A DNA stretch of 64,000 nt, taken from assembly GCA_030427255.1 (NCBI GenBank), contig JAUHWY010000004.1, positions 62,001 through 126,000 on the forward strand. Reading direction: 5' to 3'. Positions 32,439-49,533 of this stretch are shown in pieces. Every line of letters starts with the position of its first letter. Position 1 is the stretch's first letter. The DNA is from Bacteroidia bacterium (lineage in GTDB: Bacteria; Bacteroidota; Bacteroidia; CAIKAF01). Under the pieces are notes generated by a model. That model was not told where the DNA came from, did not search any database, and saw nothing but the letters and a program-made list of their open reading frames with translations. The position numbers were made by a program, and so were the translations under genes.

Positions 32439-32590
32439 GAATGGTGAATGGTGAATGGTGAGGTAAAGACGGGATGCCTCCCGTCTCTTATGACGCAGTA
32501 AAGACGGAATGCCTCCCGTCTCTTATGACGCAGTAAAGACGGAATGCCTTCCGTCTCCTAATGATAAGTGAAGACGCAACATCTTGCGTC
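32439..32590 (+). repeat. short heptamer array plus four hairpins at 35-bp spacing
   Basis: Three GAATGGT units (32439-32459) run into GAGGTAAA and then four 18-nt hairpins starting at 32468, 32503, 32538 and 32573, exactly 35 bp apart. Stems: GACGGGA/TCCCGTC, GACGGAA/TCCCGTC (one G-U), GACGGAA/TTCCGTC and GACGCAA/TTGCGTC, each with a 4-nt loop. The first three share the 17-bp spacer TCTTATGACGCAGTAAA. The last is followed by eight T and can serve as an intrinsic terminator for the upstream gene. Confidence 0.9.
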
Positions 32591-32601
32591 TCATTTTTTT
32601 T

Positions 32602-32752
32602 GGCCGCCTTATCCTGCTGTCTGCGGTAGTGCCACGTCTCCGGCCCACGGTCTGCGGCCGCTCCGGGGTCTTCGTTCCTCAGCCTCCTCGCTTGGCCGCA
32701 TACCGGGGCCAGAGCCGCGTCAGCTACCTGCTTCCATCAGGGGCGGAAGAGT
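32602..32752. repeat. GC-rich intergenic hairpin element, copy F
   Basis: GC-rich block between two heptamer arrays. It opens GGCCGCCTTATCC, like GGCGCCATATCC in the block at 60671, and contains a stem TGCGGCC with GGCCGCA. No coding sense seen. Confidence 0.6.
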
Positions 32753-32772
32753 ACCGAATCAAAAAAGAAAGG

Positions 32773-32975
32773 TTAAATGATGAGGTAAAGACGGGATGCC
32801 TCCGGTCTATCAATGATCAATGATGAATGGTGAATGATCAATGATGAATGGTGAATGATAAATGATGAATGATGAATGATGAATGGTGAATGGTGAATGG
32901 TGAATGATGAATGATAAATGATGAATGATAAATGGTGATGTAGATACGTGATGCCTCCCGTCTCCCTGGTGCCCC
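32773..32975 (+). repeat. heptamer array with flanking hairpin remnants
   Basis: Eighteen 7-bp units of the form (G/A/C)AATGRT at 32811-32936. Before it lies AAATGAT-GAGGTAAA and a copy of the hairpin (GACGGGA....TCCGGTC, one mismatch); after it a decayed copy (GATGCCTCCCGTCTC, near 32949-32964). Same joint rule as in the arrays at 32439 and 49163. Confidence 0.85.
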
Positions 32976-47015: not shown

Positions 47016-49178
47016 ATGCGTTTTCTTTTTCTTGCTTTGATTTTGACGGCGTCGGCGGTGGCTCAGCGGCCATTTACCTTGGAGGATATTTGGGTGAACT
47101 ATTGGTTTTTTCCGCGCGGGGCGGAGGGCTTTAATGCCACGGCAGACGGCAAGCACTATTTGGCAGAGGACGATGGCGGTTTGGCCAAATATCGATTCGA
47201 CGCAGAGGCGCCGGTGGCCGGCTACCGTTTTTCTTTTGAGGGTCGACCTTTAGATGGCTTTGACAGCTACCGTCTTTCGTCGGATGAGCAAAAGGTTTTG
47301 TTGGCTACGGAAACGGAGTCGATTTATCGGTATTCGTCGCGGTCGCTGTATTTGGTGGGGAATCTGGCGGATGGAGAGTTGCGGCCATTGACCGAGGGGC
47401 AAAAGGTGCGCTATGCGGATTTTTCGCCTGATGGGAAGCATGTGAGTTATGTAAGTGGCAATAATTTATATATTAAGAGTTTAGAAGATAATACTTTACG
47501 TAAAATTACGGAAGATGGAAAAGTCAATTCCATTATTAACGGGGCTTCGGATTGGGTGTATGAGGAGGAGTTTGAATTGGTGCAGGCCTATGACTGGTCG
47601 CCCTCTTCTGCCTATTTGGCCTATTTAAAGTTTGACGAGTCCGAAGTTCCGGAGTTTACCATGCCAATGTTTGGCGGTGGTTTGTATCCGGAAAACTATG
47701 TGTTTAAATACCCCAAAGTGGGCGAAAAGAATGCCGAAGTGAGCGCTTGGGTCCATCACGTGGCTTCGGGGAAAGCGGTACAGGTGTCGCTTCCTTCCGG
47801 TGTAGAGTATTTGCCGCGGCTTTGGTGGACGCCGGACGACCGCCTGGTGCTCTTGGTGATGAACCGGCTGCAAAACCACATGCGTTTGCTTTTGGCTGAT
47901 CCGGAAAGCGGTAGTACGCGAGTTATTTGGGAGGAGCGCAGCGATACGTATTTGGAGCTGCCCGAGGACCCGGTGTTTTTGGCCGGCAGCAGCCGCTATT
48001 TGCTCACCAGCGAAAAGAGCGGTTTCAAGCATTTGTATGTGAACGATTTTGAGAAACAAAGCTCAGAGGCTCTAACAGAAGGTGCTTGGGAGATTCGCGA
48101 CTTTTTGGGTTTTCATGAAGGAAGGAAGGAGGCGCTGTATACCTCCACCGAAACCGGTTCCATGGAAACGCAGTTGTTTGCAGTAAATTTGAAGGGCAAG
48201 AAACGGCAAATTACCAAGGCACCGGGTACCCATGACATTTCTTGGAGTGGCGATTATTTTGTGGACAACTACAGCCGTGCGCATGCGCCTTACCGAGCTG
48301 GGCTCTATGATTTGGACGGAAACGAGTTGAGGGTGCTCAACCAGGAAGCATACGATATATACCAAAAGTTGTATAATGAGCAGCTGCAGTTGAAACCTCC
48401 GGTTTTTTTCTCAGCCCCCGCTGCGGATGGCAGTTCATTGAATGCCTTTGCGATTTATCCGCCCAATTTTGATTCCAGCAAGACCTATCCGGTACTCATG
48501 TATGTGTACGGTGGTCCCGGAAGTCAGGAGGTTACGGATGGTTGGATGGGTCCCAACTACGGATGGTTTCAATACCTGAGCACACGTGGCGTGGTGGTGG
48601 TTTGCGCCGACAACCGTGGCACGGGAGGTCGAGGCAAGGCCTTTCGCGACATAACTTACGGTCGTTTGGGCGAAATAGAGACCCGCGATCAATTGAGCGT
48701 GGCGCGCTGGCTGCAAGCTAAGTCTTGGGTCAAAGACGATGCCATAGCCATGTTTGGCTGGAGTTATGGCGGTTATATGACGGCCTTGTGTACCTTTCAG
48801 GGGAGCGATGTGTTGAGCGCCGGAATCAGCGTGGCGCCGGTTACCAATTGGAGGTTTTACGACAATATTTATACCGAGCGCTATATGGGGACCATGCAAA
48901 CCAATCCCAAAGGCTTTGATAAGCAAGCTCCCATTCGATTTGCAGATAAACTTGAGGGAGACTTTTTGTTGATTCACGGTAGCGCCGACGACAATGTGCA
49001 TTGGCAAAACACGGCAGAGTTGAGCATGGCCTTGATTCAGGCGAACAAGGACTTTGAGCAATTCATTTATCCGGACAAGAATCATGGCATTTATGGCGGG
49101 AATACGCGCCTGCATTTGTACCGAATGATGACCCGGTTTTTGGAGGAGAAAGTGGGGGGGATGAATGGGGAATGGTGA
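47016..49178 (+). CDS. DPP-IV-type S9 serine peptidase, exported
   Basis: 720 residues. Signal peptide MRFLFLALILTASAVAQ. An N-terminal beta-propeller (about 20-470) has DWVYEEEF, the double-Glu motif that in DPP-IV anchors the substrate N-terminus. The C-terminal hydrolase domain has GWSYGGYMT (nucleophile Ser), GSADDNVH (Asp) and DKNHGIYG (His). It removes X-Pro dipeptides, or X-X-Pro tripeptides, in the periplasm. Two POT peptide transporters lie downstream and fit uptake of its products. The last codons (GMNGEW) coincide with the start of a heptamer array. Confidence 0.95.
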   Translation: MRFLFLALILTASAVAQRPFTLEDIWVNYWFFPRGAEGFNATADGKHYLAEDDGGLAKYRFDAEAPVAGYRFSFEGRPLDGFDSYRLSSDEQKVLLATETESIYRYSSRSLYLVGNLADGELRPLTEGQKVRYADFSPDGKHVSYVSGNNLYIKSLEDNTLRKITEDGKVNSIINGASDWVYEEEFELVQAYDWSPSSAYLAYLKFDESEVPEFTMPMFGGGLYPENYVFKYPKVGEKNAEVSAWVHHVASGKAVQVSLPSGVEYLPRLWWTPDDRLVLLVMNRLQNHMRLLLADPESGSTRVIWEERSDTYLELPEDPVFLAGSSRYLLTSEKSGFKHLYVNDFEKQSSEALTEGAWEIRDFLGFHEGRKEALYTSTETGSMETQLFAVNLKGKKRQITKAPGTHDISWSGDYFVDNYSRAHAPYRAGLYDLDGNELRVLNQEAYDIYQKLYNEQLQLKPPVFFSAPAADGSSLNAFAIYPPNFDSSKTYPVLMYVYGGPGSQEVTDGWMGPNYGWFQYLSTRGVVVVCADNRGTGGRGKAFRDITYGRLGEIETRDQLSVARWLQAKSWVKDDAIAMFGWSYGGYMTALCTFQGSDVLSAGISVAPVTNWRFYDNIYTERYMGTMQTNPKGFDKQAPIRFADKLEGDFLLIHGSADDNVHWQNTAELSMALIQANKDFEQFIYPDKNHGIYGGNTRLHLYRMMTRFLEEKVGGMNGEW

Positions 49179-49414
49179 ATGGTGAATGATGGATGGTGAA
49201 TGATGGATGGTGAATGATGGATGGTGAATGATGGATGGTGAATGATGAATGGTGAATGATGAATGGTGAATGATGAATGGTGAATGATGAATGGTGAATG
49301 GTGAATGGTGAATGATGAATGGTGAATGGTGAATGATGGATGGTGAATGATGGATGGTGAATGATGGATGGTGAATGATGGATGGTGAATGATGAATGGT
49401 GAATGATGAATGAT
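49163..49414 (+). repeat. heptamer tandem array, about 36 units
   Basis: Thirty-six 7-bp units, strictly in phase, of forms GAATGGT, GAATGAT and GGATGGT, often in the 14-bp order GAATGAT-GRATGGT. It starts inside the final codons of the peptidase gene and ends at GAGGTAG, directly before an 18-nt hairpin (49423-49440). Length variation by slippage is likely; the two strands also carry long spurious frames rich in His and Ser. Confidence 0.95.
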
Positions 49415-49422
49415 GAGGTAGT

Positions 49423-49440
49423 GATGGGCTGTCCCCCATC
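49423..49440 (+). repeat. 18-nt hairpin joined to the heptamer array
   Basis: GATGGG pairs with CCCATC around a short loop. Compared with the hairpin GACGGG/CCCGTC at 32468 this is a paired C-G to T-A change at the same position, and the flanks GAGGTA and TCT are the same. So it is the same element with a compensated stem. Confidence 0.75.
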
Positions 49441-49443
49441 TCT

Positions 49444-49533
49444 GAAGCTTTTTCTGTATCGCATCATAGTTTGGATGTGGTGCACCGGTATATCCAGAAC
49501 CAAAAGATTCGGCATAGGGAAGGGAAGGGATGA
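49444..49533 (+). pseudogene. fragment of a Y1 (IS200/RAYT-type) transposase, C-terminal
   Basis: The frame reads EAFSVSHHSLDVVHRYIQNQ then KIRHREGKG and a stop. The pattern FSVSxxxxxxVxxYIxNQxxHH is that of the last conserved block of Bacteroidota IS200-like/REP-associated tyrosine transposases (Y1_Tnp, PF01797). No upstream coding part, with its HUH motif and catalytic Tyr, remains: the fragment begins 4 bp after the hairpin. A frame shift near 49529 may extend it slightly. It is short, so the similarity is suggestive rather than proven. Confidence 0.6.

Follow-up and report, generated by a model that had tools for sequence, protein, structure and literature searches.

In the genome of a Bacteroidia bacterium, runs of the heptamer GAATGRT lead into short hairpins, which raises the question of whether array and hairpin constitute one element or two components that happen to meet, and of how such arrays came to be. 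We address this for a window (that is, the whole stretch of 64,000 nucleotides that was analysed) that is part of contig C13 of a 3.2-Mb Flavobacteriales genome in 57 contigs (G000). At a probability of roughly three in four, we favour the reading that a lineage-specific heptamer satellite has grown from a 7-nt spacer seed beside pre-existing REP-like hairpins.

Arrays and hairpins in the window

Two sites in the window carry arrays together with hairpins. The features at the 49-kb site are:

47016–49178, + strand: dipeptidyl peptidase IV / S9 peptidase gene, the stop codon of which falls within the heptamer array
49163–49414, + strand: heptamer array (GAATGRT)n, 36 units (27 exact GAATGRT)
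49415–49422, + strand: joint GAGGTAGT, the GTAR foot of the hairpin
49423–49440, + strand: REP-like stem-loop GATGGGCTGTCCCCCATC (GATGGG..CCCATC)
49447–49533, + strand: 3′ remnant (AFSVSHHSLDVVHRYIQNQKIRHREGKG-stop) of an IS200-like Y1 transposase gene, intact (128 aa) at the same site in the sister species

Those of the 32-kb region are:

32439–32459, + strand: heptamer array (GAATGGT)3, 3 units, beginning 4 bp past the stop codon of the upstream gene
32460–32467, + strand: joint GAGGTAAA
32468–32555, + strand: three tandem hairpins GACGGRATGCCTYCCGTC, period 35 bp; the first (GACGGG..CCCGTC) at 32468–32485
32573–32590, + strand: hairpin variant GACGCAACATCTTGCGTC, with a covarying stem
32592–32765, + strand: GC-rich conserved repeat of ~170 bp (TTTTTTTGGCCGCCTTATCC...) that recurs after such hairpin clusters
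32782–32807, + strand: GAGGTAAA and a damaged hairpin GACGGGATGCCTCCGGTC
32811–32936, + strand: heptamer array, 18 units
32937–32962, + strand: GATGTA joint and degenerate hairpin (GATACGTGATGCCTCCCGTC)

An earlier note on this DNA had described three arrays, each running directly into GAGGTA and a hairpin. This description holds for the 36 units at 49163–49414, which show a 14-bp higher-order pattern (GAATGAT-GGATGGT / GAATGAT-GAATGGT), and for the three units at 32439–32459, which are followed after the joint by four hairpins in all at 35-bp spacing. The third array, placed by the note at 32773–32936, has to be redrawn: GAGGTA (32782–32787) comes after about one unit and precedes the array, the damaged hairpin comes next, and the true 18-unit array (32811–32936) ends in GATGTA and a broken stem.

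The ~170-bp GC-rich repeat (TTTTTTTGGCCGCCTTATCCTGCTG...TACCGAATC) follows hairpin clusters at 32592–32765, at further loci of the genome (L099, L100, L104, L117, L118 and L138) and at loci of the sister species (G004), and looser relatives (GGCCGGCTTTTCCGGCTGC...) lie beside hairpin-less arrays (L108 and L113) and next to Y1 genes (L062 and L063); it had no match in Rfam.

Association and polarity across the genome

Arrays and hairpins are abundant in this genome far beyond chance, with, as lower bounds, 284 tandem GAATGRT pairs (204 + 80) against 0 for the reversed pattern and ~225 AAGACG-N-CGTCTC hairpins (116 + 109) against 1; the joint GAGGTARWGAYG occurs 76 times. In contigs C1, C11, C13, C19, C40, C51, C52 and C54, an end falls within or close to a cluster of hairpins or heptamers; assembly was probably interrupted by the arrays, hence the lower bounds.

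In the complete and unbiased list of arrays of at least three units (contigs C1–C17 and the window, about a third of the genome), ~18 of 24 arrays run into a GTAAA foot and an intact stem-loop, always in the order array then hairpin, one (window 32811) reaches a damaged stem-loop, and five (L105, L106, L108 (twice) and L113) reach none; given these five, the hairpin is not required for arrays. The GTAAA foot is constant across joints and the three bases that precede it vary, GAGGTA being found in ~6 of the 19 hairpin-reaching arrays and GCAGTA, GATGTA, GAAGTA, TATGTA, CAGGTA or bare GTAAA in the rest. In this third of the genome, the inspection of flanks, which the earlier note had called for genome-wide, confirms the hairpin at most arrays, and GTAAA takes the place of GAGGTA, which the note had taken for a fixed joint.

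Polarity is strong: across 44 clusters, 278 heptamers precede the first hairpin and 28 come after the last, and the 32.8-kb array that ends in the damaged hairpin accounts for 12 of the 28. The commonest distances from hairpin to hairpin are 36, 43 and 50 bp (29 + 7k), and a second set falls one base short of this series (35, 28 and 42 bp), which places hairpins and heptamers in one common 7-bp register. The clusters lie between open reading frames; ~15 of the 44 begin no more than ~25 bp past the stop codon of a co-oriented upstream gene, and upstream genes are co-oriented in 23 cases versus 8.

Two separable components

Comparison with G004, a sister species (95–97% protein identity in two marker genes; 87–91% DNA identity over most of the window, ~88% at the nucleotide level), gives the order of events. 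The hairpin is present in both species at 13 of 17 orthologous loci; by the length of its longest heptamer run, G000 exceeds G004 at 15 of the 17 and falls short of it at none (p = 6e-5), a comparison that is biased because the loci were picked for arrays or hairpins; the pairs L103/L214, L114/L222 and L138/L203 give the same picture. Whole-genome counts are unbiased, and heptamer triples number 172 in G000, 7 in G004 and 0 in G001–G003 and G005 of the same genus, which identifies the arrays as derived. Given that the sister keeps hairpins at the same sites almost without arrays, the hairpin came first and the arrays arose later in the lineage of the window.

The 49-kb site illustrates this history: in G004, GGATGATGAGGTAAA (~1 heptamer) and the hairpin are followed by the GC-rich repeat and an IS200-like Y1 gene, versus 36 heptamers, a hairpin with a compensated base-pair change and a Y1 gene reduced to its 3′ end in the window. 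The orthologous hairpin is GACGGGTTGCCCCCGTC, which bears out the compensated C-G to T-A swap proposed earlier for this copy. At another locus (L114 versus L222 in the sister), two hairpin clusters of G000 enclose ~2 kb of additional DNA that includes a long reading frame, whereas a single hairpin stands there in the sister; gene segments of a similar kind are present at further sister clusters (L208, L209 and L230), which suggests exchange between clusters.

Arrays also occur elsewhere. Of 395 Bacteroidota genomes sampled, 26 contain arrays of (GAATGRT)3, with the reversed pattern present in four of those listed; the GTAR hairpin was absent at the ~25 arrays inspected in other Bacteroidota, several of which begin just past an apparent gene stop codon. 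Matches to the joint pattern in other phyla (L094 and L096) were chance-like, had no such hairpin and were discarded. At L301 (G500), L298 (G422) and L318 (G248), arrays of the GAATGRT type face an inverted similar copy across a stem-loop or spacer, and the heptamers could there form the outer part of a large hairpin.

Sister hairpins without arrays, together with arrays elsewhere without hairpins, indicate two separable components that meet in this lineage. Of the earlier proposal that array and hairpin are one unit with a joint too regular for chance, the non-random joint and the polarity survive, and the single unit does not, given the bare hairpins of the sister, the five hairpin-less arrays of G000 and the arrays of other Bacteroidota. 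On these sequence comparisons, the arrays appear to be recent, local and lineage-specific expansions and not part of a fixed mobile unit.

A REP-like hairpin that resembles RAYT-linked palindromes

When folded as single-stranded DNA (−8.5 kcal/mol, z −6), the common GTAA form of the hairpin pairs into an 8-bp stem closed by a 4-nt loop and leaves its GTAA foot unpaired, which is the layout of a REP. Stems covary between copies and between species, and an Rfam search gave nothing above the gathering score. As in REPs, these are high-copy intergenic palindromes of the 20–40 bp kind (~225 copies, 8-bp stem, clusters between open reading frames), although the abundant foot is GTAA instead of GT[AG]G (GTAG occurs mostly in double-foot copies), and we therefore speak of REP-like or derived REPs and not of canonical ones. 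Other classes fit less well: REPINs are inverted REP pairs forming one long hairpin, whereas these hairpins stand in direct tandem; in CGTC-tagged REPs the CGTC tag is unpaired, whereas here it pairs with GACG in the stem; and CRISPR spacers are unique, whereas these spacers are repeats of one 7-nt unit. The arrays themselves, as 7-bp repeats that vary in length between close relatives, are heptameric simple sequence repeats (SSRs) or satellites.

Related GTARAGACG..CGTCTC palindromes, with inner stems that differ and covary, occur in 34 of 149 genomes (G000 included), and in G001–G004, G012, G126, G145 and G000, GTAR palindromes are found on the flanks of RAYT genes or in frame within them. 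In the genus, subclass-2.4 RAYT genes have double-foot GTAGAGACG..CGTCTCTAC palindromes next to them or within their reading frame, and this includes the RAYT gene of G000:

C15:57865–58505: full-length, intact-looking RAYT gene of G000, subclass 2.4 by motifs

By their motifs (NHFH or DHIH, WQ and YIKNNP), these RAYTs match subclass 2.4, a subclass with published cases of double-foot REPs inserted in the gene (PMC6006769), and two RAYT proteins, that of G000 included, match NCBIfam REP_Tyr_transpos at E ~3e-15, below the curated cut-off. A RAYT is present in 25 of the 34 genomes with the hairpin versus 28 of the 115 others (Fisher p = 3e-7, with the 149 genomes treated as independent). In G001 (C5 48464–49129; L180 and L283), a RAYT reading frame contains in-frame tandem 57-bp units that hold the GTAGAGACG palindrome (VVETQ..AS protein repeats). 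The sole PDB match of the RAYT looks like chance and was disregarded.

The abundant single-foot hairpin (GTAAAGACGGGATGCCTCCCGTCTC) was not found flanking any RAYT, the double-foot form alone being seen there; the single-foot form shares its outer stem with the double-foot GTAGAGACG palindromes of RAYT genes. Judged by this resemblance, the abundant GTAA form is likely to be a subclass-2.4 REP; the single-foot form may have descended from the double-foot form, and a RAYT may have mobilized these particular REPs.

Other Y1 genes were set aside as partners. The three PF01797 Y1 genes found in G000 (C44, C7 and C51) have flanks that carry other palindromes instead of this hairpin, and the gene beside the 49-kb hairpin of the sister is IS200-like (NF033573) with CCCACGG/CCGTGGG-type palindromes of its own on both sides (G004:C1 ~1472086–1472472). 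IS200-like Y1 genes amid several gene-specific palindrome copies (GCTCCGTAGGAGC; CGACCCCGAAGGGGTCG; others) were seen in G000 (C44, L061; C7, L062; C51, L063), G004 (L246 and L262) and G022 (L248); by motif (YILNQ/YIKNQ), they resemble subclass 1.2, for which no REP is listed (PMC6006769).

Growth of the arrays

Unit types differ between arrays (mutual information 0.80 versus a permuted maximum of 0.52; 1000 permutations), and the longest arrays have significant 14-, 21- or 42-bp higher-order patterns. Array-specific variants and higher-order patterns together point to local duplication by slippage or unequal exchange and not to copying from a master. The earlier note had left slippage and repeated copying from the hairpin end side by side; the within-array variants fit slippage-like local growth, and the second finds no direct support, given that unit variants differ from array to array.

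The following course of events can be envisioned. The hairpin, a REP-like palindrome with a 5′ GTAA/GTAR foot, an 8-bp stem and a 4-nt loop, would derive from the Bacteroidota double-foot REP family (GTAGAGACG..CGTCTCTAC) that accompanies subclass-2.4 RAYTs. In the genus, such REPs stand at gene ends, often in direct tandem, and their spacers consist of whole numbers of a degenerate 7-nt unit (CAATGAT, GAGGTAA). Once the two sister species had separated, the 7-nt spacer by the 5′ foot was probably amplified in this lineage, locus by locus, into long GAATGRT satellites. Slippage or unequal exchange is the most likely mechanism to judge from the array sequences, and the stem-loop is a plausible site of replication pausing, through which the hairpin may have promoted growth. 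Simple slippage alone leaves the strong 5′ polarity unaccounted for.

A more ambitious idea, which we regard as unlikely, is that the REP stem-loop (possibly with a RAYT nicking the GTAR foot) itself generates the 7-bp satellite in one direction, adding units 5′ only; bacterial satellites would then have REP palindromes as their seeds. In an enzymatic reading that we consider improbable, the transposase would nick at the GTAR foot, where repeated rounds of strand processing or displacement would add 7-nt units 5′. The arrays do lie directly against the 5′ foot, which is where Y1 transposases have their guide tetranucleotide, heptamers number 278 on this side versus 28 on the other, and G000 encodes a full-length subclass-2.4 RAYT; however, other Bacteroidota have arrays of the same heptamer that no such hairpin accompanies, and the sister has comparable RAYTs yet no arrays. 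Just as improbable is a composite mobile element in which array, joint and hairpins move as one cassette and owe their common joint to one founder copy: although order and orientation are fixed at most sites, loci are more numerous in G000 than in its relatives and a RAYT is present, the sister shows array-free hairpins at the same sites, array variants are locus-specific, joints vary and five arrays have no hairpin. Very improbable, finally, is a selected gene-end element, with hairpins as mRNA 3′-end stabilizers or terminators and arrays supplying stops in all frames (TGA at each unit junction), given that, against the placement of clusters past stop codons of co-oriented genes and the covariation of stems, template-switch correction of palindromes can also yield covariation, the sister has no arrays at the same genes (and thus no conserved need for them) and many clusters lie elsewhere.

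Relation to known systems and implications

The preferred reading, satellite growth beside older REP-like hairpins, is novel in detail and not in kind, given that REPs and heptameric SSRs are both already known; a literature search found no paper on a heptamer–hairpin composite of Bacteroidota. The hairpins share with the double-foot REPs of RAYT subclass 2.4 / group 4 (PMC6006769) the GTAR foot, the palindromic stem-loop, high copy number, intergenic position and double-foot copies that flank and lie in-frame in RAYT genes (in G000 too), but the abundant copies of G000 are single-footed with GTAA instead of GT[AG]G, stand in direct tandem and carry 5′ heptamer satellites. The arrays resemble the heptameric SSRs of Xanthomonas (GGGAATC) and Nostoc (GGGGAYT) (PMC4692102) and cyanobacterial tandem heptanucleotides as 7-bp intergenic repeats at many loci that vary in length and sequence between related species; unlike the Xanthomonas and Nostoc repeats, GAATGRT is not of the G-quadruplex type, and most arrays of G000 abut a REP hairpin with fixed polarity. 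Tandem REP clusters of Pseudomonas SBW25 (PMC3116915) likewise order REP palindromes together with flanking sequence, whereas REPINs are inverted pairs and the hairpins of G000 are direct with spacers quantized in 7 nt. GTAG- and CGTC-tagged REPs (PMC3733652) are also tagged short palindromes found mainly downstream of genes, but the CGTC of G000 lies inside the stem and head-to-tail pairs are rare in the tagged families.

These findings place the hairpins near a known RAYT/REP class and suggest a reason for the contig breaks of such genomes at these sites. With the hairpin alone in one species and, at matching sites of its sister, the hairpin accompanied by heptamers that can number in the tens, the two genomes form a natural series, which allows the effect of a stem-loop on the growth of tandem repeats to be tested in bacteria.
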